64,000 bases of DNA from NCBI RefSeq assembly GCF_020091585.1, contig NZ_CP083582.1, positions 1,240,001 to 1,304,000 of the forward strand, written 5' to 3'. Positions within the stretch are counted from its first letter, which is position 1. Each line of letters begins with the position of its first letter. Below, in pieces: positions 18,617 through 38,644 of the stretch. The position numbers and the translations under genes are program-made. Source of the stretch: Kovacikia minuta CCNUW1 (GTDB lineage: Bacteria; Cyanobacteriota; Cyanobacteriia; Leptolyngbyales; Leptolyngbyaceae). The notes beneath the pieces are model-generated. The model saw only the letters and a list, made by a program, of their open reading frames with translations, did not search any database and was not told where the DNA came from.

Positions 18617-18653
18617 AACGTTGATTCTCACCTTCAGCGTTCTACTCATGCGC

Positions 18654-18790: not shown

Positions 18791-18872
18791 GCGTTGCGTT
18801 CGCTCAAGCCAGCACCCCCCGAGCCTGCGACCTCTGATTGAATTGGGTTAGGAACAATTTGAACCTTAACTC

Positions 18873-19448
18873 ATGCGGAGTACATCTCAGAAACTCACCT
18901 TTGAAGAATACCTGGCTTACGACGATGGTACGGATAATCGCTACGAGCTAGTGGATGGGGAACTGGTTAAGATGCCGCCGGAAGATCGGATTAACTCAAA
19001 AATTGCCCTGTTCCTGTTGGCGAAGTTATTAGAGGTTTTCCCTGAAGATCGGCTGTGTTACAAAGACACGGAAATCGAGGTCAGCGGCTCTCTGGCAAAA
19101 ACGCGCCTGCCCGATCTGATGGTGTTGTCAGAAGAGTTAGCGATGATTTTGGGAGATGGGCGCGGCACCATTACCCGCGAGATGCCACCCCCTGATCTAA
19201 TTATTGAAGTGGCTTCACCGGGCAAAACGAACGAGGAGCGCGATTATCGCTACAAGCGTTCTGAGTATGCGGCAAGAGGGGTGCCGGAGTATTGGGTGAT
19301 TAGCCCCAGCGATCGCAACATCACTGTTTTCAGTTTAGAAGCGGGATTCTATGAATCCGCCGTTTACACGGGCGAAATGGTCATCCAATCCCGGTTTGAA
19401 GCATTGCGGTTGACAGCGGATCAGGTGTTGAAACGAGGACGGCTTTAG
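18873..19448 (+). CDS. Uma2 family endonuclease (DUF820), copy 3
   Basis: 191 residues, close relative of the copy at 1962-2561: [26 protein letters not shown], then the nuclease core with [19 protein letters not shown] and [20 protein letters not shown]. The predicted PD-(D/E)XK residues are present, so the fold and metal site look intact. It faces away from the upstream DUF4351 remnant and towards the large leftward operon. Target and role are unknown, as for the whole family. Confidence 0.9.
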
Positions 19449-19531
19449 TCTATTGCCCGTAGTGTATCCAACTTATTTCATCTGGTTCATCTGGTTACCA
19501 AGCTGGAACTTGGTAACGAGTAAATGAAGTA

Positions 19532-20734: not shown

Positions 20735-20863
20735 AGCATAGTACTCATTGGTGTTTTCACACTTTCCATCTTGCTATCAATATATAATCTACCTTATTGA
20801 AAATTCCCTCAGTTTCAAGTCGCGATCGCGCGAGGGGAGAGGGTAAAGGGCTACCAAGAATCT

Positions 20864-23431: not shown

Positions 23432-24510
23432 TCCTCATGCAGATGAGCAAGGGGTTGTCCGCGCACAATATCAATCACATTACCAAATCCATCCTCATCC
23501 ATCTGTTGCATTCGGACAAGATAGGCAATCACCTCGGCAGACGTGGCTTGCCAGCGATCGACAGGCATCGGGTTTAACCAGCCAATCAGATTGGTTCGTT
23601 GCTTGAGCTGTACCAGAAATTCTGTCGTTGCCCGAATCCGTTCCATCCGGCGATAGCCCCTGGCGGCTCCCGCATCACTCACAACCAACAGACTGGTATC
23701 AGCATCACACCCAGCGATCACCGCTTCCAAAGGCACTGGTTGAGTCAGACGAGCATCCTGATACACATAATCATCCGGCACGTTATGGAAGTAGTAAATC
23801 GCAACCCGCTCCAGCTTTCCTTCTTCCTGAACCGTCTCTACCAGATCCCGCGTAAAGCGATGGAAGGGAGTCATAGAGCCATCCTGGTCAATCAGCAGCA
23901 GTAGCTGAGCATGGTTCACCTCCCTACGACGATAGACCGGAGCCAGGAAAAACCCCTGACGGGCAGCCTGCTCCACAGTCAACTCAATATCCAGCACATC
24001 CGCTGGACCATCTGCAACCGGACGCCGCAGGTAACGCCAGATGTAAGCCATCGAACGGCGAGAGACGGGTAGATAAACGTGTAAGTCAGGGGTATTGTCA
24101 ATATCGATGGGAACGTAGGGCGATCGCACAGGTAAAGGAGTCAGGGTCGGAGCCAGATCCTGCTCAGGCGGGGGAAGTTCCGGTAATGGAGGCGGTAGCT
24201 GCTCAAGGGGTTTGGGTGGGTCGGGTAACGGGGTTTCGTCCTTTTGCTGCTGGGTCGTCTCTCTCAAAGGCGCTGGCGAAAAGTCTGCACTGATTGCTTC
24301 CCACATCACAGCAAACTGGCTTTGCTCGGCGATCGAATGGCACCAGAGCAACAGCAAAATCAGTCTGAGGGCATCCAGGCTGTCAGCACCCATTCCCCCT
24401 CTTACAGCATCCACCGCAGCCAGATATTCGCTGATACCCAGATTGAAGCCGTTCTTGCGTAAACGGCTAAAGACTGGCTCCAAAATTTGCTCTGGGTTAA
24501 ACTCACTCAT
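23428..24510 (-). CDS. vWA domain protein of a vWA-MoxR-VMAP system
   Basis: 360 residues. A helical N-terminal region (residues 1-75) is followed by a proline-rich linker (92-135, including LEQLPPPLPELPPPEQDLAP). A von Willebrand A domain starts near 200; its metal site reads DQDGS at 208-212 in place of DxSxS. SDAGAARGYRRMERI and LVQLKQRTNLIGWLNPMPVD are typical of this vWA group. The gene overlaps both neighbours by 4 bp (ATGA). It is expected to pair with the MoxR ATPase and present or restrain the VMAP protein. Confidence 0.87.
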   Translation of the reverse strand: MSEFNPEQILEPVFSRLRKNGFNLGISEYLAAVDAVRGGMGADSLDALRLILLLLWCHSIAEQSQFAVMWEAISADFSPAPLRETTQQQKDETPLPDPPKPLEQLPPPLPELPPPEQDLAPTLTPLPVRSPYVPIDIDNTPDLHVYLPVSRRSMAYIWRYLRRPVADGPADVLDIELTVEQAARQGFFLAPVYRRREVNHAQLLLLIDQDGSMTPFHRFTRDLVETVQEEGKLERVAIYYFHNVPDDYVYQDARLTQPVPLEAVIAGCDADTSLLVVSDAGAARGYRRMERIRATTEFLVQLKQRTNLIGWLNPMPVDRWQATSAEVIAYLVRMQQMDEDGFGNVIDIVRGQPLAHLHED

Positions 24511-25475
24511 GAGGCAGACGCATGCTTTTGCCAGTCAGCCCGTAGCTTAAACAGCAACTCTCGGTAGGGAACTGCCTGAGGCGACTTCAGTTTCGATACC
24601 GCATAAGGTTTAGCACCAAAGTTCTGTAAGGCATCGACCCAATCTAAAAATTCACTGGTGCCCGGAATCTTAAACAGTCCCCCCGTCCTGCGGATCTCCA
24701 GGAATCGATTAGCCGCAGCCTCTACTAATTTTTCCGAAGGGTGGGGAGTTTCTGTCTGATGGGAATAGTGAGCGGTGACAATCTCGCGTAGGCGCTCTGA
24801 ACTATCCGGGAACTTGAGAAAATAGTAGATACAGCGTCTCAGAAACGGGAACGGCAGATTCCCCTTTTCTTTATTGCTGGTGATAATGACGATCGGTCGA
24901 TGACTGGCTCGAATTTTGGCTTCACCCGTCTCACCCGTTTCGGGAATTTCAAACTCCCACGGTTCATCCAACACTGCCAGAAGGTCATTCGGAAAGTCTA
25001 AATCAGCCTTATCGATTTCATCAATCAGAACCACCGCTGGAACGTCTTTCAGACCGAATGCTTTACCCAACGCTCCAAACTTGCGGTAATCCTTAGGGTT
25101 AGCTGGATCGCGATTGAGTGAAGTGCCCGTTTCCCTTGCCTGAACATCATGCAAGCGCAAAATCGCATCATATTCGTACAGCCCTTCCCTTGCCTTACTG
25201 GTAGAGCGCACATCCCAGCGATAGAACGGCAACCCCAACTCATGGGCAACCGCAGCCGCCAAGCGTGTCTTCCCACATCCCGCCTCTCCCTCCAGTAACA
25301 AAGGACGCCTGAGATAAATTGCCAGATTGACCGCCTGAATTAACTCCTCGTTGGCAATATAGGGTTCTGCCTTTTGAGGCGAGTCCTTGTGAGGCTTCTT
25401 CGGACGGAGGCTGAGATCACCCCGAAATGTGTATTGTTTAGTGGAATTCATAGGCTCGGCTTTCTCGTGGCTCAA
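24507..25475 (-). CDS. MoxR-family AAA+ ATPase
   Basis: 322 residues. Walker A GEAGCGKT at 63-70, Walker B VVLIDEIDKA at 148-157, sensor-1-like ITSNKEKGNLPFPFLRR and arginine-finger region RRCIYYFLKFPD. The length and layout fit MoxR ATPases, which work with vWA proteins as chaperone-like remodelling pairs. The start overlaps the previous gene by 4 bp; an internal Met at residue 9 (MNSTKQYTF) is possible. It sits between the iSTAND gene and the vWA gene in a tightly overlapping operon. Confidence 0.93.
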   Translation of the reverse strand: MSHEKAEPMNSTKQYTFRGDLSLRPKKPHKDSPQKAEPYIANEELIQAVNLAIYLRRPLLLEGEAGCGKTRLAAAVAHELGLPFYRWDVRSTSKAREGLYEYDAILRLHDVQARETGTSLNRDPANPKDYRKFGALGKAFGLKDVPAVVLIDEIDKADLDFPNDLLAVLDEPWEFEIPETGETGEAKIRASHRPIVIITSNKEKGNLPFPFLRRCIYYFLKFPDSSERLREIVTAHYSHQTETPHPSEKLVEAAANRFLEIRRTGGLFKIPGTSEFLDWVDALQNFGAKPYAVSKLKSPQAVPYRELLFKLRADWQKHASAS

Positions 25476-26476
25476 CTAACCAACTTAGACATCTCATTCA
25501 TTAACTCACTATGAACATCGTTAGGTCTTCCTTTTGCAACTCGATGAATTGATTGAGCCATCTGCTTCATATCGGCAACCTGAATATTTAACCCTGAAAA
25601 CTTGACCAGCCAATTGTGGATTTCCGGCTCTGTCCAATTTTGCAGCGGCAATTCCAAAATCTTTTCTCCATGAAACGTCTGTTTCCTACAGCAAAGGGAA
25701 TTGGGCAGGGAATCTTTTGGCAAGGAGTCACGCACCATTAAAACGGCTATCAGCCGAATCAAAGGATGCTCATGACACAAGCCCGATAACCTTCTCACTA
25801 ATGGGCACCAGAACTGGTTCACAAACCAATTGAGAAAGTCATCTTGGGCGTGAAGAGAGTAAATCTCAATTTGAATATAAAAAATGTTCCCTCGACGCAG
25901 CGAACCGCAGATGCGATCGACAATCATATCCAGATACGTTTGACTATCTCCTGGAGCCTGTTGAACCTGAAACTTTTCTGCTAAGAAGTTCAGGAAAAAT
26001 TGGGGACGGGTCTGCTGGTGTGATAAAAACTCAAATTCACAGGGAGGGTACATTTTCCCCAAATCTTGAAGCTGAGATTTGATATTTTTGGCACACCACT
26101 TTGCTCCCATAGATCGACTGTTTTGCATCAGAAAGAGAGCCGCTCCCTCTTTGTTCTCAAACTTATTAAGAATACTTGTGATAATTTTATTGGCTTTTAT
26201 AAAATTAATCTTTGGTAGCTTTTCTTCCCATTCGGTGGAATAAGCTCTATAGGAGTCTGCATCACTACTTCCTGAAAACTGAAACTGTTTGATTTCTGCC
26301 TCAATTTCCTGAATTTCAACCTCTAGATTCCGAATAGAATCTCTAATAGGAACTTTATCTACTTCATTCAATGTGCCAGATAGCTGGGTATACAAAGCCT
26401 TATATTTTTGAACTAAGCTTTCTAAATATTTTTTCTTCTCTCCAATCAATGGTTGACTATTAACCAGACTTGTCAT
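25472..26476 (-). CDS. iSTAND protein with N-terminal effector-associated coiled coil
   Basis: 334 residues. Residues of about 14-65 form a helical domain (KKKYLESLVQKYKALYTQLS, then VPIRDSIRNLEVEIQEIEAE) that is recognisably the same as the C-terminal domain of the protease encoded next upstream. From about 80 on there is an inactive-STAND-like domain: ALFLMQNSRSMGAKWCAKNI, EFEFLSHQQTRPQFFLNFLA, and a late RVAKGRPNDVHSELMNE. I see no Walker A motif, consistent with iSTAND. In published systems such proteins dock onto effectors through matching effector-associated domains. Confidence 0.75.
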   Translation of the reverse strand: MTSLVNSQPLIGEKKKYLESLVQKYKALYTQLSGTLNEVDKVPIRDSIRNLEVEIQEIEAEIKQFQFSGSSDADSYRAYSTEWEEKLPKINFIKANKIITSILNKFENKEGAALFLMQNSRSMGAKWCAKNIKSQLQDLGKMYPPCEFEFLSHQQTRPQFFLNFLAEKFQVQQAPGDSQTYLDMIVDRICGSLRRGNIFYIQIEIYSLHAQDDFLNWFVNQFWCPLVRRLSGLCHEHPLIRLIAVLMVRDSLPKDSLPNSLCCRKQTFHGEKILELPLQNWTEPEIHNWLVKFSGLNIQVADMKQMAQSIHRVAKGRPNDVHSELMNEMSKLVS

Positions 26477-26492
26477 AAGTAACTATTCTCAA

Positions 26493-27371
26493 TCAGTTAG
26501 ACAATTGGTTCATCTGCTGCTCTACCTGTGAAATCTCACTGTCTAGAGCCTTAATTTGTTCTCGAATGCTTATTGCATCAGCCTGACTCAGCATGTAATT
26601 TAACTGGTTATAAGCCGCCTCATACTTGGCACAGAGAACCGAGTAGTTCTTCTTAAGCGCGTTCAGCTTAACCTGGCGAAACGAGGGTAAAGTGTCCGTT
26701 GAGTCCTTGACTGAAGGTTGCTGAGATGAGATCCTCTGCTCCACATCTGACCAGGCAGAACTGAGAACCGATGTCGGAATCATAAATGCCGCTTTGACAT
26801 TTTCCCGCCGCTTTTCGGCTGCCACCGCCATCCCCACCACCCCTTGCAGCGATTCATCCCACACAAGCGCACCACTAAATCCAGGCTCTACCTGATAACC
26901 CGCTGCCTTAATATCTTCTATCTGTATCCAGCCATTTGCCCGCTGATCGCGCAGAACCCCACTTGCCCAAACTCCCTCATCATGCCCCTTCGGAAATCCA
27001 AAAATCCTGAAAGGGTGCCCCCAGTAATCACTCGTTTTGAGCAGCCGGACAGGTTGAACAGCCTCATGGGACGTGTCTTCCAGCTCCAGCCCCGCGATAT
27101 CTTCCCCTAACTGGGACGGATTAACAGGTTGCCAAAATTTCACGATTGCCCTCTTCCGTTGCCCTGCGGCAACCAGTGGAAAATCGAGTTCGATCGCTCC
27201 ACTAGGTATCTCTTGGGTATTCTGAGGAAGACCGAGCGCAACCGTCACTACATGAGCACAGGTGAGAAGTTGGCGATCCGATATCAAAAACCCCGCTCCT
27301 ACAACCGCGTTTCCCTGGTAAATGCGGGCGATCGCTGATCTGAAACTGCGAATGTAATTCTCTGGGGACAT
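26493..27371 (-). CDS. Trypsin-like serine protease with C-terminal effector-associated coiled coil
   Basis: From the ATG at 27371 (MSPENYIRSFRSAIARIYQ) the product is 292 residues; longer readings run into the previous gene. The protease part has the His of TCAHVV (residue 40), an Asp in GEDIAGLEL and a Ser in GFSGALVWD, so the triad looks complete. Cytoplasmic, since no signal peptide precedes the domain. The last 55 residues (LNALKKNYSVLCAKYEAAYN, then ISIREQIKALDSEISQVEQQ) match the N-terminal domain of the iSTAND protein. I infer an immune-type protease effector activated through that shared domain. Confidence 0.87.
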   Translation of the reverse strand: MSPENYIRSFRSAIARIYQGNAVVGAGFLISDRQLLTCAHVVTVALGLPQNTQEIPSGAIELDFPLVAAGQRKRAIVKFWQPVNPSQLGEDIAGLELEDTSHEAVQPVRLLKTSDYWGHPFRIFGFPKGHDEGVWASGVLRDQRANGWIQIEDIKAAGYQVEPGFSGALVWDESLQGVVGMAVAAEKRRENVKAAFMIPTSVLSSAWSDVEQRISSQQPSVKDSTDTLPSFRQVKLNALKKNYSVLCAKYEAAYNQLNYMLSQADAISIREQIKALDSEISQVEQQMNQLSN

Positions 27372-27384
27372 AGCACACCGATTC

Positions 27385-27715
27385 CTAATCCTCTTTCCAC
27401 TTGAGGGTAATTTCAAAGTTGACATCCCCACCCACTGAAGCGATGATTGCCCCTGCCTCAGCACTCAGACTTCAGACCAAACTTGACCTCAACCTCATTA
27501 GCAGGTGTCGTCAATCCCCTTTTCAATTTAGAAATCAACACGGAAGCCACAGGCTTCACAATTTCAATCGCTTCTTCAAAGGACTCCCTCGCCTGAAGCA
27601 CCATTTGCCCTGTATCGATGGCAACCCGTTCAACTGCAACCCCTTCGGGTTCATCAACTTCCACCAGAAATTTAGTGCCATCCTCTAGAGAGAACTGAGC
27701 AATTTCCTTATCCAT
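27385..27715 (-). pseudogene. Trypsin-co-occurring (CU044_2847-like) protein gene with a frameshift
   Basis: The frame from the ATG at 27715 reads DKEIAQFSLEDGTKFLVEVD, later FEEAIEIVKPVASVLISKLK and EVEVKFGLK, and then stops at 27458. Skipping the single base at 27469 continues it as LSAEAGAIIASVGGDVNFEI and TLKWKED to a stop at 27385-27387. This is the normal ending of CU044_2847/trypco1 proteins, small partners that accompany trypsin-like proteases in conflict systems. The base could be a true mutation that disables the partner, or a sequence error. It sits 13 bp before the protease gene. Confidence 0.8.
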
Positions 27716-27896
27716 TGACTCCTGACTCCCGATTCCTGACGCCTTCCCGTTGCCGCAATCGCCGGATGAAAGACCGGATCACCTGCCGTTTACTCTCCTG
27801 ACGCGATCGACAGTAATCCTCCAAAACCTGGTACTCACTCTCCGGTAACTCCACCGTCAACCGCTTAACTGGTTCAGCAGACACCTTTCTGGACAT
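27708..27896 (-). CDS. Ribbon-helix-helix regulator heading the leftward conflict operon
   Basis: 62 residues: KRLTVELPESEYQVLEDYCR then SRQESKRQVIRSFIRRLR, a clear ribbon-helix-helix arrangement. It overlaps the trypsin-co-occurring gene by 8 bp and is the first gene of the leftward operon, so it probably represses that operon. A similar protein heads the divergent operon at 28147. Confidence 0.8.
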   Translation of the reverse strand: MSRKVSAEPVKRLTVELPESEYQVLEDYCRSRQESKRQVIRSFIRRLRQREGVRNRESGVNG

Positions 27897-28125
27897 GGAT
27901 TACCCACAAAACTCATGCATCGCACCCACCATAGCACCTGCATTCAGCAACGGGTAGAGGCAACCACCATAATTATTCTTTCTTCACTTTTTGGGTTAGC
28001 ACTCTACTTAAACCACGTCATCACCCAAAAAAGTGACTTCAACGATCGCCGCATACTTCTCCCCCAAAGTGCCCATCCAGCAATACAGGTATCGATTAAA
28101 TCCCTTACAATAGTTGGCTAGTTCC

Positions 28126-28144
28126 GTAACTCGTCGTCAGTTAC
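28126..28144. promoter_or_regulatory. Inverted repeat GTAAC-N9-GTTAC before the divergent RHH gene
   Basis: Arms at 28126-28130 and 28140-28144, ending 2 bp before the ATG at 28147. It sits in the 250-bp gap between two divergent genes encoding related ribbon-helix-helix proteins, and is a plausible operator for one or both. Confidence 0.4.
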
Positions 28145-28146
28145 AT

Positions 28147-28329
28147 ATGGCAACCACTGAGCAACGAAAGGTTGAGCACCTCAACGTCCGGCTCCCCGTC
28201 TCCGAAATGGCAATCCTGAGAAACTACTGCGAAGCCAATCAGCGATCGCAGTCCGATGTCATCCGCGAATTTATCCGCAGCCTGAGTGCAGCCGTCAACC
28301 CCTCCTCCACTCTTCCACCAGATTCATGA
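28147..28329 (+). CDS. Ribbon-helix-helix regulator heading the rightward operon
   Basis: From the ATG at 28147 the product is 60 residues: KVEHLNVRLPVSEMAILRNY then QRSQSDVIREFIRSLSAAV. It is similar in layout to the divergent protein at 27708-27896 (strand, then two helices, with V-IR-FIR in helix 2). Its stop overlaps the next ATG by 4 bp. Probably an autorepressor of the rightward operon, perhaps cross-acting on the leftward one. Confidence 0.8.
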   Translation: MATTEQRKVEHLNVRLPVSEMAILRNYCEANQRSQSDVIREFIRSLSAAVNPSSTLPPDS

Positions 28330-29078
28330 ATCCTCCTCTCAGTGGCTCCTTGGAGACTGGAAATAAGTTTCCCAACTGTGTATCCTTCAAGCTGCATTGT
28401 ACCCCCGTTCAATCCCCGAATGGTTCTGCACTAGGGTTTCAAGCATTAGAGACTGTGCTTACTACTCCAGCGGTCGAACAAATTGATTTGAAACTGACGA
28501 TCCGGTTTGGTAAGCAGATCATCAAATTTCCTGGGGGTACTGTCGAATTTGGCTTGAAGCGAGGGGAACTTGCTCTCCGGTTCTGGAATGGCAAGATGCC
28601 TATGGAAAAAGTGCAGTTGAAATTCGATTTTCTCAAAGCTTTGGAAGTGGAAGACCAACGGGAGTACGGTCAGGAATTGGAGGGAGTGATCGCGGTAGCT
28701 CCGGGAGTAAAGATAAAGGATGCGAATAAACTTTCCAGTAAGACGAAGCGATCGGTTTCTCAGGTGCATAATCGCGGTACGGAAGAACAACCAGTATGGG
28801 AGTTTCAAGCTCACTCCAGCCAAGACCCCCCTATTTTGCTGGGACAATTGACTAGAGAACACCTTGGTACTGTAGAAATGGCAGGAACCCCCTGCTCTTG
28901 CACCGCCATCTTCACAATTCGGAACCAAAACGATTTGTATCTGTTTGACGCGAGTGGACTGATTTCCGGTAAAAACCTGAGCCGTAATCAACTCGCCTTG
29001 ATAGAACGGAAATTCTTTCTGCGCTTTATTGCACCCAAGCTTCAGCCTCATCTAAGTCAAGTTGAGGAGGTGTTATGA
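28326..29078 (+). CDS. Conserved hypothetical beta-rich protein
   Basis: 250 residues, no recognised domain. The first half alternates strands (IDLKLTIRFGKQIIKFPGGT, VEFGLKRGELALRF), the middle holds a basic stretch (NKLSSKTKRSVSQVHNRG), and the last third has CSCTAIFTIRNQNDLYLFDA. There are no membrane segments. ATGA overlaps on both sides couple it to the ribbon-helix-helix gene and to the pentapeptide protein, so the three act together. Function unknown. Confidence 0.65.
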   Translation: MNPPLSGSLETGNKFPNCVSFKLHCTPVQSPNGSALGFQALETVLTTPAVEQIDLKLTIRFGKQIIKFPGGTVEFGLKRGELALRFWNGKMPMEKVQLKFDFLKALEVEDQREYGQELEGVIAVAPGVKIKDANKLSSKTKRSVSQVHNRGTEEQPVWEFQAHSSQDPPILLGQLTREHLGTVEMAGTPCSCTAIFTIRNQNDLYLFDASGLISGKNLSRNQLALIERKFFLRFIAPKLQPHLSQVEEVL

Positions 29079-30250
29079 GTAACCCTAGCTTTGAAATTAG
29101 CCCGGAAGAATTCCAAGAATTTCAAACTCTGGTGCAGCAGGTGGAATCTGCTAAAACCGACGACTTCATCCAACTTGCGGCAGTTCTGGGAATCAATCCC
29201 AAAAGCGATCTCATTGGTGCTGACCTCAGCCAGGTTTACCTTTACGATGTCAATCTCAGCCATGCCGACCTTAGCGGTGCCGATCTCAGCGGTGCCAACC
29301 TCAGCAATGCCAACCTCAGCAGTGCCATCCTCAGACGTGCCAACCTCAGCGGTGCCATCCTCAGCGGTGCCACCCTCAGTGGTGCCACCCTCGTCAGTGC
29401 CAGCCTCAGCGGTGCCAGCCTCAGCGGTGCCAGCCTCAGCGGTGCCAGCCTCAGTGGTGCCAGCCTCAGCGATGCCACCCTCAGCGGTGCCGACCTCAGA
29501 CGTGCCAACCTTATCACCGCAACCCTCAGCGGTGCCGACCTCAGACGTGCCTATCTCAGACGTGCCTATCTCAACTTTGCCAACCTCAACCGTGCCAACC
29601 TCAGTGGTGCCGACCTCAACCGTGCCATCCTCATCGGTACCAACCTCAGTAGTGCCAACCTCAGAGGTGCCAACCTCAACCGTGCCAACCTCAGAGGTGC
29701 CGACCTCAGACGTGCCGACCTCAGACGTGCCGACCTCAGACGTGCCGACCTCAGACGTGCCGACCTCAGATGTGCCGACCTCAGCGATTCCATTATCGAT
29801 TTCAATACCCAGATTTCAGATAAGTGGCGGCTAGTTCATCAACTAATTAATCAGGGCACACAAGATAGAAACCTCAGCGGTGCCGACCTCAGCGGTGCCT
29901 ACCTCAGTGGTGCCTACCTCTTCGATGCCAACCTCAGCCGTGCCAACCTCTTCAATGCCAACCTCAGCCGTGCCAGCCTTAGCGGTGCCAACCTCAGTGA
30001 TTCTGATCTTAGCGATGCTGACCTTAGCCGTACCAACTTCAGCCGTGCCAACCTTAGCGGTGCCAACCTCAACCGTGCTGACCTCAGCGATGCTGACCTC
30101 AGCCGTGCTATTGTGATGCAATGCCGATTTGGGATAGGTATCGGATTGAGAGAGACCGAAAAAGTTGATTTGCAACGGCGGGGAGCCATTTTTGATGATG
30201 CAATGGGCGATCGCGCTTCCTCTAGTTCCCCTGTCCCCTCACGCCGTTAA
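29075..30250 (+). CDS. Pentapeptide-repeat protein with near-identical 15-bp DNA repeats
   Basis: 391 residues. A 45-residue helical lead-in ([20 protein letters not shown]) is followed by two blocks of A-N/D-L-S/R-X repeats: residues of about 47-238, then a short spacer ([14 protein letters not shown]), then about 265-350. Such proteins form a beta helix, and some mimic DNA to protect gyrase. Repeats are almost identical at DNA level (CTCAGCGGTGCC units; three exact tandem units around 29417-29461), suggesting recent expansion by slippage. It is the last gene of the rightward operon. Confidence 0.88.
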
Positions 30251-30283
30251 GGGGGAATCTGGAGAATTGAGCAATCCAGTTAT

Positions 30284-30874
30284 CTATCGTTGCTGCTTCC
30301 GGTAATCCCACGGTCGCTGATAATTTCCTGCCCACACTCCCAGATGCTTTGACTGAGCCAGCCGCTCTGCTTGAGCGATCGCTTCCCGGTTGGGGCAACT
30401 ACCAGAATAGCGGGTGTACTCATAAGCCATCCCGGATGCCACCATCTCGTAGTTGATGAATCGCTCCTGCTCTGGTTGCTCACGGGTCGGTGCTTTGACA
30501 AAAACTTCTCCAACGGTACGACCGTACCGATCCTTCTCCACAGAAACTACCATCACCTGATTGTTGGCACTGGCAAGCAGCGATCGCAGCTTCTCCCTCG
30601 CTTCCTTTCCAAACGGCTGCCCCAGATTACGACCGTGAGCAACTTCCGGCGCATCAATCCCACACAACCGGATCGTCTCCCGCCTCCCACCACTCTGAAC
30701 TTTGATCGTATCCCCATCACTCACCCTCACCACCTGCCAGCTTTCCGACTGGGAAAACCGCGATTGCTGCCAAACCCCACTTCCCAAATGGGCAATAATT
30801 ACTGCTATCACACAGACTAATCCCACGATCGCAACCAAACCCCACCGAACTTTCACAGCATCCCCCATTCGCAC
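30284..30874 (-). CDS. Thermonuclease family protein (staphylococcal-nuclease-like), membrane-anchored
   Basis: 196 residues. The N-terminal membrane segment at 12-30 (LVAIVGLVCVIAVIIAHLG) exports or anchors it. The SNase domain follows: WQVVRVSDGDTIKV, the active-site Arg in ETIRLCGIDAPEVAHGR, FGKEAREKLRSLL, then KDRYGRTVGEVFV with the second Arg, and a C-terminal Cys/Tyr-rich piece with WDYRKQQR. All key residues are present. It degrades nucleic acids outside the membrane. It lies tail to tail with the pentapeptide gene. Confidence 0.9.
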   Translation of the reverse strand: MRMGDAVKVRWGLVAIVGLVCVIAVIIAHLGSGVWQQSRFSQSESWQVVRVSDGDTIKVQSGGRRETIRLCGIDAPEVAHGRNLGQPFGKEAREKLRSLLASANNQVMVVSVEKDRYGRTVGEVFVKAPTREQPEQERFINYEMVASGMAYEYTRYSGSCPNREAIAQAERLAQSKHLGVWAGNYQRPWDYRKQQR

Positions 30875-31020
30875 CTACCACACCTACCACACCTATCACC
30901 CCACACCCCAATTCCGTAACTTCTCTGATGCACCGCAAAAGGATTGGTGAGTACAGCTTCTAAAGTTCCCAAATGCGGGAATCTGACTCCAATCTCTAAA
31001 CCTTTCTCCGGAGAAACATA

Positions 31021-31641
31021 ATGAACAAAACACTTGTGAGGAGAGCTGCTGCTGCTCTTGGTCTAATTGTGGCGATCGCACCTACCCTGGCTCAAGCTGC
31101 CCCTGCCAGCTACGCCCCATTTAAGGACTCTGAAGGTAACATCTGGATTTCGGGCACTCCCAATACTGAAACCATTGTCACCTTTGGGTCAGTCGAAAAA
31201 ATGAAGGATGTTAAGGCTGATGCTTGTGGGCTGGTCAAGCTAACTCCTTCCACCTCAGTTCCCCTAACCTCACCATTTAGAGTCGATGGCACGACGATCA
31301 ATCCCGCTACTCTCAGCACAGATATTCTGCCCAAATGCACCAATGGCACCCTGGAACAATCCCGACCCAGTAACTTTAAGACCTCGGATGGCAAAATCTA
31401 TGTGGTCGGTAAGACTGCTGGCAGCTACTACAAACTTGCCTACAACGTGCCTGTCGAAAAGCGGGTCAAAGCAAATGCCTGTGGAATTGGGCGGATTGCC
31501 AGCAGTGCTTCAATCCCCTTCACATCAACGACTCAGTTTGCTGTAGGAGTTAATGACCCCATCACCTACGGCAATCTCTCAACCAGTGAACCCTGGGTCT
31601 GTCGTAGTGGTGTGACCTACATGCCCTACGGTGGCACCTAA
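31021..31641 (+). CDS. Secreted protein with two tandem repeats of unknown function
   Basis: 206 residues. A signal peptide (RRAAAALGLIVAIAPTLAQA) is followed by two related domains of about 85 residues. Each opens FK-S-G-I, contains a KADACG/KANACG-like segment and a final Cys (ILPKC and EPWVC). Two cysteines per unit suggest one disulfide each. A ribosome-binding site (GGAGAAAC) lies before the ATG. A terminator follows at 31672. The protein family is not recognised; an extracellular or surface role is inferred from the signal only. Confidence 0.7.
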   Translation: MNKTLVRRAAAALGLIVAIAPTLAQAAPASYAPFKDSEGNIWISGTPNTETIVTFGSVEKMKDVKADACGLVKLTPSTSVPLTSPFRVDGTTINPATLSTDILPKCTNGTLEQSRPSNFKTSDGKIYVVGKTAGSYYKLAYNVPVEKRVKANACGIGRIASSASIPFTSTTQFAVGVNDPITYGNLSTSEPWVCRSGVTYMPYGGT

Positions 31642-31671
31642 ACAATAGCCACATTCTGTAAGTCGCCTTTT

Positions 31672-31696
31672 AGCCTTCCAAATGGAGGGCTTTTTT
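31672..31696 (+). terminator. Rho-independent terminator
   Basis: The stem AGCCTTCC (31672-31679) with loop AAAT pairs with GGAGGGCT (31684-31691), allowing one G-T pair, and is followed by TTTTTA. It ends the transcript of the secreted repeat protein. Confidence 0.75.
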
Positions 31697-32590
31697 AGTT
31701 CCTGGTTCCCATCAAGTGTCATTTGAAGACGGGGCAAACTCTCAATTATTTAATTGCAGTTCAGTGAAGCAAAAGCTCTGGTTGCCAAGGAATCAAGGTA
31801 CGCAGTAGTTTATTAAAACATATCTAACTACGGATGCCGTGCCCTTAAAGTAACCATAAGTTCTCTGAACTCATAGATTAAGAAATTTAGAGCAATTGCT
31901 GATTGGATGACCGATACCCTCAGTCTGATCAAATGCCTTAGCGTCAGTGCAATGGATCAGATGCCAGTACGTTTCGCCTCGACACAATTTAGCTTGAGTG
32001 TTTCCTACTTATCCTTTACAAAACACCTTTGGAGCAGGAGCAAAAGCTGCGGATGACAGGGCAGAAAAGCCCAGGGGTGGAAGAAGGGGAACCGAATACA
32101 TCCCAAACCATGCATCGGTAGAACTTAAGGCAATTCCTATCTTAGAAGTGGATGCCAAGGATATCCTCACGCATGCTTTTGTACCGTATCTCTAAATTCA
32201 GATTTTCTTCTTCCGCATCAACTGAAAATTCTTAAAACCCTTGTCTTCAGGGGTTTTAAGCCCAATGGGTTAGATGGACATGTCCTGATTAGCTGCTTGA
32301 GTGTCCGTATCAGGAATTAGAACTTTGACACAGGAACACTTAGCGCCTTGGAGGTGACCAGCACCAGGAACAAACTTAGACCTCTCTACCGAAAGTTTGG
32401 GAAGGGCAACAACACACAGGATGTCAGGCCAGAGCGTTGTTTGTCCATTCCCGCTAACTTTCGATCCTCTAGTTCACTATGACCAAAAGGAGCATCTGTC
32501 TTGAGCTTAACTAATTACGCCTTCAAAGGAACTTGTCAGCATCCGGACATTTCAGACATAACTCTCCCAAAGAGTATTTTACTGGCTGAA
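31697..32590. other. 900-bp region without a convincing gene
   Basis: A 65-codon frame at 31998-32195 has no sensible start context or family resemblance, and I do not call it. The only strong structure is the hairpin at 32231-32260. The region may hold remnants of earlier insertions or untranslated RNA. Confidence 0.35.
32231..32260. repeat. Perfect 10-bp hairpin CTTAAAACCC / GGGTTTTAAG
   Basis: Arms at 32231-32240 and 32251-32260 with a 10-base loop. There is no T tract, so it is not a standard terminator. It resembles the subterminal hairpins of IS200/IS605-type elements, but no transposase remnant is visible nearby. Confidence 0.4.
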
Positions 32591-32734
32591 ATGTCGATGT
32601 CAAAACCAGATACTGCTGCAATTCTTCAGAACGGAGATACTGCCGTTTCAATCATTCTGGCAGTTAGTATGCTCGTCGGAGCAGTGTTTAGTGGTGTAGC
32701 CACTCTTATCCTTGCCCAAAAGATGAAAGGCTAA
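32591..32734 (+). CDS. Small membrane protein
   Basis: From the ATG at 32591 the product has 47 residues: MSMSKPDTAAILQNGDTAVS followed by one hydrophobic helix (IILAVSMLVGAVFSGVATLI) and a short basic tail. A longer reading from TTG at 32501 adds an unconvincing N-terminus. A terminator follows directly, which supports a real small transcript. Function unknown. Confidence 0.5.
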   Translation: MSMSKPDTAAILQNGDTAVSIILAVSMLVGAVFSGVATLILAQKMKG

Positions 32735-32757
32735 TACCGGAGATTCAGCTATCTTAT

Positions 32758-32793
32758 GCCCTGTTGAGATTTAATTGTTAAACAGGGCTTTAT
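32758..32793. terminator. Bidirectional terminator between convergent genes
   Basis: GCCCTGTT (32758-32765) pairs with AACAGGGC (32781-32788), a perfect 8-bp stem, followed by TTTATT on the plus side and preceded by an A/T-rich strand usable on the minus side. It separates the small membrane protein from the leftward operon that ends at 32790. Confidence 0.7.
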
Positions 32794-33794
32794 TCATTAT
32801 CTGTCCCCAGTACCAACAGTTTCACCCGTGCCAGTTGCGATCGCAGCCGTGCCCACTGTCGGAACGTCTCTGCCTTCTGCTTATCCATCGCTGACAGGTT
32901 CCCCAGATAGCTAACGGTGTTGCCGTCGCCGAATCGATACCCGACCTCAATCACCTTCATCCGCAACACTTCCCGTTTAGCAATTTCCTGGCTCACCTGA
33001 AAATCCCGCCGGATGGTATCGAAGTCCAGCACTTGCAGGATCACCTGTTCCCGTAATTTATCCTTCAACTCATCCCGTTGCTTCTCCACTTCGGCAACCT
33101 TCACCTGGAGGTCAGCGATCGCAATACTCCGCTGTTGAGCTGCGGCATCCCCACCCGTGAGGTTCCGAAACAATGGAACGCCCACCAGAGAAAGGATTTC
33201 ATTAATCGTTCCAGTGGGTTTTACGAAGAAATCAAACACTCGATCGAGGAATCCCCGTTTCCTCGGTTCCTGCCCCTGCTGCACAGGTACATCTTCCACC
33301 TTCAGATAGCTCTGTACCAATGGCTCAAATACACTGAGCGCGATCGTCTTCTGGTTGTTCTTCTTCGCCTCATCAATTTTCTGATTGATTACCGTAACCC
33401 TTTCATCAATTGCCTTCAACGTTTTGGAACTGGCGATCGCCCTTCCCTGCAACTGTCTAATACATGCTTCAGTTGCTTCCAGACAGGGCAGTTCCCCTAA
33501 CATCGTTTTCCAAACATCATCGTTGAACTGCATCTGAATCAGTTTGTCCAACGAATCGCCAGCCGGGTTGAGGGGATTGGGATCGGTTTTGAGAGCGTCC
33601 GGGTCATCAGCAACCGTTGGCTTTTGATCACTCTCTTCTTCAGGTGGTGGCTCATCACCTGGAGACATTTTCACCTGGGGCGTTGTTGATTTTGCCGGGG
33701 GAGACGGTTGGACTTGGGGGGGGTTGGACTGCGCCAGGGTGGGAACTGATGTCAGCCACAACCAAAACAAGCTCCACACTAAGAGCCTGGTCAT
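32790..33794 (-). CDS. Secreted coiled-coil protein, last gene of the HerA/TraD-like operon
   Basis: I start at the ATG at 33794 because MTRLLVWSLFWLWLTSVPTL followed by AQS is a clean signal peptide. The product has 334 residues: a proline/acidic linker (PPPEEESDQ), a region with two Cys (ELPCLEATEACIRQLQG), and long coiled coils (DLQVKVAEVEKQRDELKDKL; LDFDTIRRDFQVSQEIAKRE). It overlaps the upstream lipoprotein gene by 140 bp in another frame. A periplasmic scaffold for the operon's export-like machine is possible; no family is recognised. Confidence 0.7.
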   Translation of the reverse strand: MTRLLVWSLFWLWLTSVPTLAQSNPPQVQPSPPAKSTTPQVKMSPGDEPPPEEESDQKPTVADDPDALKTDPNPLNPAGDSLDKLIQMQFNDDVWKTMLGELPCLEATEACIRQLQGRAIASSKTLKAIDERVTVINQKIDEAKKNNQKTIALSVFEPLVQSYLKVEDVPVQQGQEPRKRGFLDRVFDFFVKPTGTINEILSLVGVPLFRNLTGGDAAAQQRSIAIADLQVKVAEVEKQRDELKDKLREQVILQVLDFDTIRRDFQVSQEIAKREVLRMKVIEVGYRFGDGNTVSYLGNLSAMDKQKAETFRQWARLRSQLARVKLLVLGTDNE

Positions 33795-34587
33795 TCTGCC
33801 CACTGAACTTAATGCGTTGAATTCTGCCACTGTAAGGACTCCTGACCGCTGAAAGGGTGGATAGTTGGGTTTCAACCTGGGATAGTTGCCCCTCCAGTTG
33901 GGCAAGCTGCCCTTGCTGCTGAATCTCCTGTTGCCGCAGGGAGATCGCCCGTTTACTCATCTCCAACGAATGCTCATACTCCTGAAATTGGCGATCGTTC
34001 TCTGCCTTTGCCAGTTTCCCCTTTGCCGTTTCCACCTCTGCTAATGCCTGGTCGAGTAGCCGTTGTTTTTGATCCAGCAAAGCCTGCTCATGGGGAATCG
34101 TCGCCTCTGGTAGATCACTTTTTGGCATCGACTGAAGCAGATCTAACTTCCGTTGCTGTTGTTCCTTCACCCGTTGGGCATCGGTTGCCTTAATCTTGAG
34201 CCGTTCCACCTCTGCCACCTCTGAAAGAAAGGAGGATGTGGGCAATCCTGCTACTTCAGGTATAGGCTGCTCCAGTTGCAACCGCAATCGTTTGATCTGC
34301 CCCTGTAACTGCTGCTGCTGGAACTCCAGGCGAGAGCGATCGTGCACCCGATCCGCAATAATCTGCCCTTCCTGCACCTGATTACCTTCCTGCACTTTCA
34401 AATCATTGGGACTGCTCAATGTCAGCTTGATCTGAAACCGTCTCTGTGGGGCAACATCAACACTCTCAGTGGGGGGATTAACTGAAGCGGTGGGACTGGG
34501 TAACGATTGCGAGACAGCCTGAGCTGTACAGCCCGAAAGAATCAAGCCAATGCCCCACCAGCAATAACGAGCCACATACTGTTTCAC
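33655..34587 (-). CDS. HlyD-like coiled-coil lipoprotein
   Basis: I start at GTG 34587, which overlaps the stop of the ATPase gene (GTGA) and gives a lipoprotein signal with the lipobox LILSGC. The body has long coiled coils (LEFQQQQLQGQIKRLRLQLE; LAQLEGQLSQVETQLSTLSA) enclosed by two half-lipoyl-like segments (LKVQEGNQVQEGQIIADRV and SPYSGRIQRIKFSGQN), the layout of membrane-fusion (HlyD) proteins. It would sit on the outer face of the inner membrane as part of a transport or secretion device. Confidence 0.75.
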   Translation of the reverse strand: MKQYVARYCWWGIGLILSGCTAQAVSQSLPSPTASVNPPTESVDVAPQRRFQIKLTLSSPNDLKVQEGNQVQEGQIIADRVHDRSRLEFQQQQLQGQIKRLRLQLEQPIPEVAGLPTSSFLSEVAEVERLKIKATDAQRVKEQQQRKLDLLQSMPKSDLPEATIPHEQALLDQKQRLLDQALAEVETAKGKLAKAENDRQFQEYEHSLEMSKRAISLRQQEIQQQGQLAQLEGQLSQVETQLSTLSAVRSPYSGRIQRIKFSGQNDQALSVELVLVVADISSHPGAVQPPPSPTVSPGKINNAPGENVSR

Positions 34588-35681
34588 TGCACCCTCTCGT
34601 AATAGGGAATAATGTCTACCTGTTTGGCATCTGTCCCAAATCGACACAATGCCTGGAGTGGTTGCAGTCCTGCCACCTTTGCCTCAGCAAACCGGAACTT
34701 TTTCGCCACCCTGCCCACCTCAGTTTGATCAACTGGAAGCACAATCTTGGTACTAGAGTTCCCAATTACATCGGCTGAGAGATGCCGCTCCGATTGGGAG
34801 GCAAGCATCAGAGCCAGCCCATACTTCCGACCGTCCGCAATAATGCGATCGCAGGCTGACCCCTTCCCATTCGGCATCTCCTTCGCCTCATCGATGCCCA
34901 AAAAGGTTCGAGGAATTTTGCCCGTCATCTCCCCCAGCAGCCGGTGATTATCCATCAATTGCTTTGCCAGCGACTCTGCCGCGATCGATTGAATTGCCGG
35001 GGGCAACTTCGACAGGTCAACCCGAATATGTTTGGCATCCAGGGGAAACTGGGGACGGGAAAACACCCCATATTGAAACGTTGCTGCCAGCTTCAGCCTT
35101 AACCGTTGGGATTCCTTACAGCCTTCCTCAATCCGAGCCTGTAACTCTTGTTCCACATCAGCGAAGTTGGGCGGCTCCTTAGACCAGGTAGCTTGCTCTG
35201 CCTGAACGATGCCCCTCTGCCGATAGCAGGCACCCAAGACATCGAGTAACATCCCTTCCTGATTCGGTCCCATTTGTAGCGACTTCTTGAGTACCGCAGC
35301 AACCGCGATCGCCTGCAAGTTGGGTCCGCCTCCCTCTGGGTCCAGGTTCACCATTAGCGGATTGATGCCCCAGGGAGAAGTCATGTGCAGCGGATAGACG
35401 GTTTCGCCCTCGATATCCTGATCACCGTGGAAGTCAATTAAAATTTTTTGCGATGCCATATATATAGTTAGCAGCGCATAAAAAAATCCTTTGAGGGTTT
35501 GCGTTTTACCACTACCAGAGGCTCCAATGCAGACTGTGTGGGCATTTGGGAGCTTTTCAGGATTCCAATAAACACCCCTTCCCAGCAGAATGCCGCTGCT
35601 CTCCGTACCCTCATTCCCTCCCCTCTGTCTGACTGGAAGTACCGCGATCGGGGGCAATGGCTTCTCATTACGGCTGAACAT
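34584..35681 (-). CDS. HerA/TraD-like P-loop ATPase
   Basis: 365 residues. Walker A GASGSGKT at 53-60 in the setting NAHTVCIGASGSGKTQTLKG, KILIDFHGDQD as the first acidic strand, RTFLGIDEAKEMPN as Walker B, and ALMLASQSERHL as the sensor-like end. This is the layout of FtsK/HerA-superfamily ATPases such as TraD coupling proteins and VirB4-like motors. No membrane segment is present, so it would be recruited by the neighbouring membrane proteins. It overlaps both neighbours (4 bp and 14 bp). Confidence 0.82.
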   Translation of the reverse strand: MFSRNEKPLPPIAVLPVRQRGGNEGTESSGILLGRGVYWNPEKLPNAHTVCIGASGSGKTQTLKGFFYALLTIYMASQKILIDFHGDQDIEGETVYPLHMTSPWGINPLMVNLDPEGGGPNLQAIAVAAVLKKSLQMGPNQEGMLLDVLGACYRQRGIVQAEQATWSKEPPNFADVEQELQARIEEGCKESQRLRLKLAATFQYGVFSRPQFPLDAKHIRVDLSKLPPAIQSIAAESLAKQLMDNHRLLGEMTGKIPRTFLGIDEAKEMPNGKGSACDRIIADGRKYGLALMLASQSERHLSADVIGNSSTKIVLPVDQTEVGRVAKKFRFAEAKVAGLQPLQALCRFGTDAKQVDIIPYYERVQ

Positions 35682-36702
35682 GGATCGACCTCACAACTAG
35701 GTTTCCGGTAGCAAAGGCTTCTCCCAGGACTGCCATCACTTCACCCGGAGAAGCAGACTCCAGTTCAATCTGTTCGCCAAACTGTTGGATGGGTTGAAAG
35801 TATTGTTTGGAACCATGCAGACTAATTTCAGCCCGGTCTAATGCGTCAATCGTGAGTCTGCCTGAGATGTAGGTATGGGGCAGTTTCAGGGGAGCGATCG
35901 CCGCTCTTACACTCTGGTTATCGAGAAACACCTCACGAGTCACCAGGGCGATCGCTGCCCTGACCGTGACTTGTACTTTTTCTGGGGCAATCTGAGCTTC
36001 TGGGCTGCTACCTACTCGATACAGCCTCGCCTGTGAGTCCTTCACCAACAAATCCTGGTTAACCGTACCGATGACCTCATAGCTACCTGCGATCGCCTGT
36101 TGGGTGATCGTATGCCGTCCCTGGATATTGGCAAATACCTGATGCTTGCTGCTCTCCCGCTGGTAGATTTCCATCGCTCCAGACTGGGAGCCTAACACCT
36201 GGTCAAAGCTCCGCATGATACCACCTGCGCTGTTGATATTGATGCTTACAACTGCGACCAGCACTAGCACACCGAGCACGATCGATTCTGCTTTACTACC
36301 GCTTGCCAGTCTCAGCCGGGGGTTTGCCGGGATGACGAGCCGCGCCTGGTGGGGAAAGAATGCAGCAACCCCAGATTTTGTGAACACATCCCCAAACCAG
36401 CCCATCCAGTAGCCAATCACCAGTGCCCAGTAGAACTCGGACTTGTTGAAGTACCACAGGGGCAGGAGAGCGATCGCCACTAGCAGGGTTGCCAGAAAAC
36501 TATGAGTAGCGGATCGATGGGGATAGCGGGCTTCGAGCCAGCGGCTAACTGGAAAGAAGATTCTGCCGGGGACACTGCCTGTCGTATCAATGTCGGGCAG
36601 TTGGGAAGCGATCGCCGCTGTGCCCAATACCCAGGGGTCAGATGTACCCATCAGCAAAGACGTAGACGCGATCGCCAGGGTGGCATGAGTCACGGATAGC
36701 AT
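35668..36702 (-). CDS. DUF457/YdjM-type membrane protein with extended C-terminal domain
   Basis: 344 residues. The N-terminal 185 residues are a DUF457 membrane domain with conserved acidic and His residues (HATLAIASTSLLM, SQLPDIDTTGSVPGR, RSATHSFLATLL, WMGWFGDVFTKSGV), related to metal-dependent membrane hydrolases. The C-terminal 160 residues are soluble and beta-rich (SYEVIGTVNQDLLVKDSQAR; KVQVTVRAAIALVTREVF) and are not part of the usual family. The gene shares one base with the AAA gene upstream. The role within the operon is unknown. Confidence 0.78.
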   Translation of the reverse strand: MLSVTHATLAIASTSLLMGTSDPWVLGTAAIASQLPDIDTTGSVPGRIFFPVSRWLEARYPHRSATHSFLATLLVAIALLPLWYFNKSEFYWALVIGYWMGWFGDVFTKSGVAAFFPHQARLVIPANPRLRLASGSKAESIVLGVLVLVAVVSININSAGGIMRSFDQVLGSQSGAMEIYQRESSKHQVFANIQGRHTITQQAIAGSYEVIGTVNQDLLVKDSQARLYRVGSSPEAQIAPEKVQVTVRAAIALVTREVFLDNQSVRAAIAPLKLPHTYISGRLTIDALDRAEISLHGSKQYFQPIQQFGEQIELESASPGEVMAVLGEAFATGNLVVRSIHVQP

Positions 36703-37511
36703 CAGCCCAACCTCGCAGACTTCTTGGGCAATGAGTAGAAGATCAGCCGCAGGATGCCCACACAGACGGTCAGGATGCCACCGATCAGGTACATGCTGGT
36801 AGAGTTCAGCCCAATCCCCACCACCCGCACAATCCCGAATACCATCAATGCTGCAATCAGGTAAGGGGTGCCATCAATCCACTGGGTATGGTCGGGAGCG
36901 GTATCCTCCAGTCCCAGATACTCTTCTTCAATCACCCGCTTTGCCAGCATGGGGTTGCCACCGCAGCGCTGCTGGAGTCCTGCCAGTTGAGCCGTACTGA
37001 TACTTAATCCAACTTCTAAGGCATGAGCTGCCATGATGTCTCGGATCTGGATATCCGTCATCGGTTTGAGTTCCAATCGGGGCAGTTTCAGGAAAATGTC
37101 TTTGGCGGGAGGTGCGGTTGCCAGCAGCAATAGGGGTTGATTCTGCTCATGCAGGATTTCCAGGAAGCGGCGAAACTCTGGCGTATAGTGGTGGGCACTA
37201 TCGCAAACGAGGAAAGCGGTATTCGCTTGCAAGAATTGGGCGATCGCATGCCTGAGTCCCACAGTCGATAGGTTCTTCCCTTCCAGGTCTTGAGTCTCTA
37301 CACCAAGTTGTTCAGCAATGCGGGTGAGCAGTTGCTTGGTACTGGCAGGTTGAATCAGGGCAACAGAGTAGCCTTCATCCTTCAGTTCCTGGGCAACCGC
37401 TTCACCCAACATACTTTTGCCAATACCAGCCTCACCCACAATCAGCAGGCTTGACCCTGAACGCAGAACTGCGGTAATCCTGCGTTTTTCAACGACACGA
37501 TAGAGGTTCAT
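36702..37511 (-). CDS. ExeA/TniB-like AAA ATPase with C-terminal membrane segments
   Basis: 269 residues. Walker A VGEAGIGKSM at 25-34 and Walker B-like FLVCDSAHHY at about 100-109, followed by LLLLATAPPAKDIFL and a C-terminal lid (AGLQQRCGGNPMLAKRVIEE). Two membrane segments at about 215-260 (LIAALMVFGIVRVVGIGL; LIGGILTVCVGILRLIF) anchor it. The soluble part resembles ExeA/TniB-type ATPases, which power secretin assembly or transposition. It is the next gene after the frameshifted small gene and just upstream of the DUF457 gene. Confidence 0.78.
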   Translation of the reverse strand: MNLYRVVEKRRITAVLRSGSSLLIVGEAGIGKSMLGEAVAQELKDEGYSVALIQPASTKQLLTRIAEQLGVETQDLEGKNLSTVGLRHAIAQFLQANTAFLVCDSAHHYTPEFRRFLEILHEQNQPLLLLATAPPAKDIFLKLPRLELKPMTDIQIRDIMAAHALEVGLSISTAQLAGLQQRCGGNPMLAKRVIEEEYLGLEDTAPDHTQWIDGTPYLIAALMVFGIVRVVGIGLNSTSMYLIGGILTVCVGILRLIFYSLPKKSARLG

Positions 37512-37513
37512 GG

Positions 37514-38015
37514 TCAGGCCGCTTGCGTTTCAACCAGTTGGCGAGAGGTCTTCCAGCGGGCGATCCGCTCGTCTGCTGCACCCTTCCCCGGTTTGCTCTT
37601 TGATATACCCAATCAGTTGGGGGTAGGTCTTCAATCCTTGCTGCCATGCTTCATCAAGCAATGCCTCAACCAGTGTTGAGCGATCGGGTTTGGATTGGTT
37701 TTCTTCGATTTGTAGTTCTGGCAGGGAATCAAAAATTTGTTGCAGGTCAGTACTTTGCTCAAGCTCTGGTGCTGTTGGAGGGAGGGAAGGAACCATTACA
37801 GCCGCGACAGTTTCAGCGACCTGAAGGGCTTCCCTTTCCGTGGCAGAGAGTGTTGTTGAAATCGTGACAACCGTTTCAGGTTTTCTTACCAGTGCTGGCA
37901 TGGGTCGGCTGATGGGTAGAGGTTTACGCCGTTGCTGTCGAGCCACGATCGTGTGGTGAATAGCAATTGCGACTAACCATAAGCTCCGTAGGGTTTTTCT
38001 CAGAATGATCATCAT
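37514..38015 (-). pseudogene. Small operon gene with single-base frameshift near its 3' end
   Basis: From the ATG at 38015 the protein has a hydrophobic start (LRSLWLVAIAIHHTIV), a polar middle, and then the conserved-looking YPQLIGYIKEQTGEGCSRRA. There the frame derails at GCGGATCGC. Removing one G of the pair at 37565-37566 (which recreates the HIP1 core GCGATCGC) continues it as IARWKTSRQLVETQAA to a stop at 37514-37516, just before the ATG of the AAA gene. The ending resembles a helix-turn-helix recognition region. It overlaps the preceding gene by 92 bp. Confidence 0.6.
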
Positions 38016-38337
38016 CGTCAGTTCCAGGAATGTTTGACATGCCTACTGGTACTGACCAAGCAAGCGCTAAAACCATGCAAGAAACACTGATTTTGCTGAC
38101 GTTCTGTATGAATTTTTGACGAAGGTAGTATCGTCGTCCCGTCTCTTCCCGTTGGGAGTAGATTTGCCGTTCAAAGATCAGGTTTTCGGTTTGCCGTCTT
38201 ACCTGCTCATAGGTAAGCGTACCGTTGGAGGCTTTGACAATTTCGTTACGGGTGAGTCCGTCTTGTTCTTGGAGGACTTCGAGGAGTTGCGATCGTGTTT
38301 GTTGACCCTGCTGGGTCGTTTCATAGATGCTGAACAT
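37924..38337 (-). CDS. Winged-helix protein, first gene of the HerA/TraD-like operon
   Basis: From the ATG at 38337 (MFSIYETTQQGQQTRSQLLE) the product has 137 residues: a winged helix at about 12-65 (LLEVLQEQDGLTRNEIVKAS, then LTYEQVRRQTENLIFERQI and RRYYLRQ), one membrane segment (ISVSCMVLALAWSVPVGMS), and an acidic His-containing tail. It could be a membrane-tethered regulator of the operon. The C-terminal 30 codons overlap the next gene in another frame. Confidence 0.65.
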   Translation of the reverse strand: MFSIYETTQQGQQTRSQLLEVLQEQDGLTRNEIVKASNGTLTYEQVRRQTENLIFERQIYSQREETGRRYYLRQKFIQNVSKISVSCMVLALAWSVPVGMSNIPGTDDDDHSEKNPTELMVSRNCYSPHDRGSTATA

Positions 38338-38586
38338 ACACAAGTGGTGAAACAATACTTCACCCTTGCTGACAGGTACCAGGAGTTCAAGTCAATCGTG
38401 GAAATCCTGACATCAGAGAGTTTTCACAAAAGTACTTGACAAAAGATATACTGATCCATGTTGTCACCCCTTTTCAGCGCTAATAAACTGCTGAGTGAGT
38501 TTAGGCGGATTCGGGGAGATTTTGGGGAAGAGGTTCCTACAGGTTTCTAAAAGTCCTAAGCCACAAAGGTTTTACAGACTGGCTGG

Positions 38587-38644
38587 GCAGACTCGAAATC
38601 TGTTTTGGGGCAACCCAACGGGGGTTCGAATCCCCCCCTCTCCG
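38587..38644 (+). tRNA. 3' fragment of tRNA-Ser(CGA), probable attachment site
   Basis: The anticodon stem GCAGA/TCTGT encloses loop CTCGAAA with anticodon CGA at 38594-38596. The long variable arm TTGGG-GCAA-CCCAA is typical of serine tRNAs. The T arm GGGGG-TTCGAAT-CCCCC and the 3' acceptor strand CCTCTCC plus discriminator G end at 38644. The 5' acceptor strand and D arm that should precede 38587 are absent: the upstream bases do not pair. I read this as the copy of the tRNA 3' end left by site-specific integration, marking the right end of the accessory region. Confidence 0.75.

Follow-up and report, generated by a model that had tools for sequence, protein, structure and literature searches.

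An orphan 3' half of tRNA-Ser(CGA) as the far end of a 40.5-kb integrative element in a cyanobacterial chromosome

The 3' half of a tRNA-Ser(CGA) gene, standing alone in the 64,000-nt stretch analyzed here (the window, C1:1240001-1304000 of the 8.56-Mb genome G000), is almost certainly the far end (attR) of a single 40.5-kb integrative element. The other end of the element lies just left of the window, where a second copy of the same sequence forms part of an intact tRNA gene that is followed by an integrase gene.

The tRNA fragment and its intact partner

In the fragment, the anticodon stem-loop reads CAGA-CTCGAAA-TCTG, the variable arm forms a perfect TTGGG/CCCAA stem, the T arm pairs as GGGGG/CCCCC, and CTCTCC makes up the 3' acceptor strand. 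These are the parts that a reading of the window's sequence alone (the sequence-only reading) had described. This reading also held that the 5' acceptor strand and the D arm are missing, and we agree, since the sequence before 38586 shows no match to the 5' half of the tRNA and ARAGORN calls no tRNA anywhere in the 64,000-nt window. The span of 38587-38644 that it gave locates the fragment correctly, but the limits are slightly wider, with the tRNA part at 38586-38645 and the repeat described below at 38586-38653. Searched against the whole genome, the fragment matches the intact tRNA-Ser(CGA) gene with E = 5.5e-26 over 67 nt, which excludes chance, and this copy is the only comparably strong match apart from the fragment itself. 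The support is one of homology; folding energy, calculated for the fragment by itself, proved unremarkable (z = -0.4). The fragment also drew Rfam matches to a psbl-rps4 UTR (minus strand), mir-33, and tmRNA, all of which fell under the gathering score, and we discarded them as tRNA cross-matches or chance.

The two tRNA sequences belong to a direct repeat of 68 bp, identical at 66 of 68 positions (97%), with both copies on the plus strand. The attR copy (38586-38653) consists of the displaced 3' tRNA part and 8 bp beyond the tRNA end, and its partner (G000:C1:1238119-1238186, or about -1881 to -1814 in window numbering) lies outside the window. One mismatch falls inside the tRNA part, and relatives show both variants in the ancestral-copy comparison.

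The sequence-only reading had predicted an intact tRNA-Ser(CGA) gene and an integrase beyond the left edge, and both are there. ARAGORN places the tRNA gene 1.9 kb outside the left edge of the window, at G000:C1:1238092-1238178, and a tyrosine-recombinase gene starts 65 nt downstream of it on the same strand (405-aa ORF, plus strand, G000:C1:1238244-1239461, equal to L024:13244-14461). Its product matches the PHROG integrase profile, a phage family profile, with E = 1.8e-11, and Pfam Phage_integrase weakly (E = 5e-4, below the cut-off). Since the first codons overlap putative arm sites, the true start may be slightly further in than the ORF start. Convergent with the integrase gene, and sharing its 3' end region with it, is a 166-aa gene on the minus strand (G000:C1:1239427-1239927) that is retained beside the closest integrase relatives; our guess is that this gene encodes a recombination directionality factor. 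Directly upstream of the intact tRNA, a ChlH-like gene contains an in-frame TAG (L024:12088-12090, G000:C1:1237088-1237090) that splits otherwise continuous parts of 1089 and 243 codons, which may reflect a sequencing error, a pseudogene, or readthrough. Other matches to this gene in the genome are far more distant (29-52% identity over parts).

The repeats bound an element of 40,467 bp, of which 38.6 kb (1..38585) lie in the window and the remaining 1,882 bp to its left, consistent with the earlier estimate of an island of at least 38.6 kb. In line with the core-type genes that the sequence-only reading saw to the right, the right flank looks chromosomal by eye, with OCP-N-domain-like and glutamine-synthetase-like proteins, and a bacterial class A RNase P RNA at 62914-63381 serves on this side as a landmark of the chromosome. 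GC content fails to set the island apart and is weak as island evidence. A search for an empty site via the synteny of tRNA-Ser and of chlH found none, the flanks not being conserved in the family.

In the mechanism that we propose, the element in its circular form would have brought with it a copy of the tRNA 3' part. With the anticodon stem providing its core sites and tandem repeats its arm sites, the integrase would have exchanged strands within the 7-nt anticodon loop, so that the whole tRNA gene was rebuilt with the element's 3' half and the chromosomal 3' half was displaced to the far end. Because the 5' edge of the repeat falls at the anticodon stem, the crossover site was probably the anticodon loop.

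Gene content and a sister element

At the left edge of the window, a minus-strand gene (1..1036 in the window; L024:14810-16036 as a whole) encodes a 408-aa protein with an slr1353-family C-terminus (NCBIfam slr1353_fam E = 1.4e-17, yet below that profile's cut-off) and, by eye, a helix-turn-helix-like N-terminus. It has partial matches on cyanobacterial plasmids, and Pfam and NCBIfam recognize no Rep domain in it; a replication initiator is a possible role. An XRE-type regulator (Pfam HTH_3; 1364..1843, plus strand), a Uma2 gene, and a 190-aa gene whose start looks helix-turn-helix-like by eye (12427..12999, plus strand) are also present, together with a staphylococcal-nuclease-like gene (Pfam SNase; 30284..30874, minus strand).

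Other genes would represent cargo, namely those for STAND, vWA-MoxR-FGE, and EAD-protease proteins. Specifically, these are an nSTAND1 NTPase (3406..5133, plus strand; Pfam nSTAND1 E = 7e-107) and a minus-strand cluster (19532..27464) in which Pfam recognizes two FGE-sulfatase-domain proteins, a CoxE-like vWA protein, a MoxR-type AAA protein, an iSTAND+EAD9 protein, and a trypsin+EAD9 protein. The cluster resembles effector-associated-domain conflict systems. The cargo named in the sequence-only reading is thus broadly borne out, with STAND and vWA-MoxR systems carried along with the XRE and Uma2 genes, although for its toxin-antitoxin part a classical pair could not be demonstrated. An IS30-family-like transposase gene (5124-6107) lies on the strand opposite the nSTAND1 gene and overlaps its end by 10 bp; the STAND protein may have been truncated by an IS30-family insertion.

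A sister element is found in G032, a genome from another genus of the same family. There, an intact tRNA-Pro(GGG) gene (C11:47338-47413) and a displaced tRNA-Pro half ending near 89642 delimit 42.2 kb. ARAGORN calls a "tRNA-Pro" at the right end of this element, and we rejected it as a whole gene because its 5' half mismatches the intact tRNA-Pro; it is the displaced half. The intact tRNA-Pro gene is followed by a tyrosine recombinase (Pfam E = 4e-17) other than the one described above. The G032 element is collinear with the window in its XRE regulator, Uma2, 12427, 28326, SNase, and 31021 genes and in the operon at the right end, and proteins of the two elements are 45-84% identical (62% for the XRE-type regulator and 74% for the 190-aa protein). 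In G019, the right-end operon and the tRNA-Pro junctions are as in G032, on separate contigs. This collinearity, with another integrase at tRNA-Pro, implies one backbone with two integrases at two tRNAs. Judging from the sequence comparison, the integration module appears to have been exchanged on a common backbone, and the element appears plasmid-like, as its backbone, chiefly the right-end operon, is common to cyanobacterial plasmids and the sister element.

The same comparison bears on whether the 40.5 kb are instead a composite, with several elements or later insertions gathered between the repeats. The IS30-family transposase, the heterogeneous cargo, and a left part whose content is unlike that of the sister element would fit such a history, which we consider rather unlikely, given that a genome-wide match search placed no third tRNA-Ser fragment between the element ends and that collinearity with the tRNA-Pro element runs from the XRE gene at 1364 through the right-end operon. 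We therefore prefer a single element.

The right-end operon

The operon occupies the minus strand next to the att repeat, with two small genes at its promoter end (37530..38355; 37530-38015 and 37924-38355) that have homologues in the corresponding position of the sister element. These are followed by genes for an AAA_22 ATPase (36702..37511; Pfam E = 1.6e-14), a YdjM-type inner-membrane protein (35668..36702; Pfam YdjM E = 2e-22), a DNA-translocase-type ATPase of the HerA/FtsK/TrwB superfamily (DUF87; 34584..35681; Pfam TrwB_AAD_bind just above the cut-off), an HlyD/RND-adaptor-like protein (33655..34647; a weak NCBIfam RND_mfp match, E = 1e-4, and a homologue with Biotin_lipoyl_2), and a TolC-like protein (32790..33905). 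Homologues of the last are annotated as TolC family, the one from Microcystis matching Pfam OEP with E = 3.5e-5, and the upstream part of the TolC-like ORF is probably untranslated. The DUF87 ATPase, which has homologues on plasmids as well, matches DptH, HerA, DndH, and Mad8 profiles, with the defense ATPases Mad8 and DndH among the nearest, and Pfam FtsK_SpoIIIE below the cut-off.

The operon is also borne by plasmids, including one from Microcystis and pSYSX of Synechocystis PCC 6803. In pSYSX and its relatives, the order is likewise AAA, metal-dependent hydrolase (YdjM), DUF87 ATPase, HlyD-like, and TolC-like, with a thermonuclease gene nearby, as the SNase gene is here. However, pSYSX is an autonomous plasmid, whereas the element described here is chromosomal and has an integrase and tRNA att sites.

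A coupling-protein-like ATPase with a TrwB domain, encoded together with a tyrosine integrase at a tRNA site as is typical of ICEs, raises the possibility of a canonical ICE or a mobilizable element working through a relaxase and a type IV secretion system, either its own or with parts from a helper. We find this improbable: among the larger proteins of the element, Pfam and NCBIfam recognize no relaxase and no full VirB4, and 29 of the 30 plasmids bearing a homologue of the TolC-like protein are typed as non-mobilizable. A temperate-phage satellite or remnant is much less probable still. The integrase matches a phage family profile and the DUF87 ATPase has one terminase-like profile match, but no capsid, portal, or tail proteins were recognized, and the ATPase is part of an operon known from plasmids.

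We speculate, at low confidence, that the operon could encode machinery for DNA transfer with a new layout, in which a HerA/FtsK-type ATPase and its inner-membrane partners would act with an HlyD-like adaptor and a TolC-like outer-membrane channel, in an AICE-like strategy fitted to a two-membrane envelope. Its role may also lie in secretion, plasmid maintenance, or defense. AICEs of the pSAM2 type transfer double-stranded DNA by an FtsK-based mechanism without relaxase or T4SS (PMC3158045). The element resembles them in its tRNA site, tyrosine integrase, DNA-translocating ATPase, and lack of a recognized relaxase or T4SS, and by this analogy an AICE-like transfer route is possible. It differs, or may differ, from them in several respects: AICEs are actinobacterial, whereas the host here, judging by its relatives, is a two-membrane cyanobacterium; the AICE translocase is an FtsK-type TraB, to which the ATPase here, HerA/TrwB-like within the wider superfamily, may not correspond; and the possible counterpart of the AICE replication initiator, the 408-aa gene, has no recognized Rep domain.

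Related integrases, attachment sites, and known islands

Relatives of the integrase were drawn from 291 genomes of the class, giving a tree set of 29 that includes the window's own. For 23 of these 29, a co-oriented tRNA gene lies upstream at a distance of 68-243 nt. A single clade (support 100/99) unites all nine tRNA-Ser-linked integrases (anticodons CGA, GCT, and TGA) with the one tRNA-Leu-linked integrase, and the remaining tRNA-linked integrases are found at tRNAs for Met, Thr, Glu, Phe, Trp, Lys, Tyr, and Ala. For nine related integrases, each directly after its tRNA, we located the 3' half that had been displaced, lying on the strand of the tRNA itself: at 35 kb in G182, 149 kb in G058, 34 kb in G211, and 89 kb in G205, also in G040, G142, G116, and G099, and on another contig in G252. 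No displaced fragment was found for three relatives within the 60 kb read in each of G173 and G122 and the 20 kb read in G249. At tRNA-Ser, tRNA-Thr, and tRNA-Lys, the repeat starts within the anticodon stem or next to it, and at tRNA-Glu and tRNA-Ala it starts near the T loop; both are known as attachment subsites of tRNA islands (PMC4383910). Duplication can yield tRNA fragments, but a decayed or duplicated remnant bearing no relation to the integrase is scarcely credible here, given an intact copy and an integrase at the exact expected place and on the same strand, a precise 68-bp repeat that runs 8 bp past the tRNA, and nine parallel cases among related integrases.

At both inner ends of the element, one motif recurs as tandem direct repeats with a spacing of about 11-12 bp, located just before the integrase gene on the left and inside of the fragment on the right. 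The right repeat (38509-38530, plus strand) reads ATTCGGGGAGATTTTGGGGAAG, in which the putative arm-type sites are arranged in tandem as ATTCGGGGAG-ATTTTGGGGAAG, and the left repeat (L024:13260-13281, outside the window) reads TTTGGGGGAAGTTTTGGGGAAG; the best shared 22-mer is identical at 18 of 22 positions. Relatives repeat this layout with different motifs, e.g., TTAGATCAAAA in G211 and TTTAGTCAAAC in G040. Nine of the 10 elements have their best shared 22-mer at +82 to +137 from the tRNA on the left and at -70 to -86 from the fragment on the right, with 16-21 of 22 positions identical. In shuffled controls, the mean was 14.3 (sd 0.86) and the maximum 18, and for left versus right ends of different elements the mean was 15.0 (sd 1.4); pairs at 16/22 are therefore unremarkable singly, and the constant position is the stronger argument. 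The exception is G182, where the automatic best 22-mer (14/22) lies elsewhere and motif repeats are visible by eye at the expected place. By analogy with lambda-type integrases, the tandem repeats are likely the integrase arm sites.

The kind of element is already known. As in Islander-class tRNA islands (PMC4383910), an intact tRNA gene and an integrase stand at one end and a same-strand 3' fragment at the other, with an anticodon-loop subsite; the tRNA and its downstream 3' fragment share one orientation at a distance of 40,467 bp, within the 2-200 kb range for such islands, and the tyrosine integrase gene lies between them. Nothing essential differs, the additions here being a plasmid-shared backbone seen with two different integrases. 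Tycheposons of Prochlorococcus, as described in PMC10872708, are similarly cyanobacterial, with a tRNA at the border, a tyrosine recombinase, and cargo, and they differ in host group and in the cargo itself. What is of interest is the apparent exchange of the integration module on a shared backbone, together with the possible relaxase-less transfer operon. A 60-nt remnant fixed the exact ends of a mobile element, and it leads to a rule for an integrase family that is widespread in cyanobacteria, in which the integrase directly follows the tRNA, tandem arm-like repeats lie inside both ends, and a tRNA half marks the far end. Such ends allow island mapping and PCR tests of excision. The backbone common to plasmids and to elements at two tRNAs points to exchange of the integration module, and the uncharacterized operon may be relevant to the movement of cyanobacterial plasmids that lack a relaxase.

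Two further observations concern the relatives. A second short repeat array, of ACCTAATAC or ATATACCT type, occurs in several members of the family on the integrase side only, in the gap between tRNA and integrase (left ends L071, L077, L080, L082), and possibly represents directionality-factor sites or second arm sites. In G252 and G182 (L058 and L059; right ends L128 and L126), the sequence after the tRNA of each resembles the sequence after the fragment of the other, crosswise, as if the ends had been swapped or the elements stacked.
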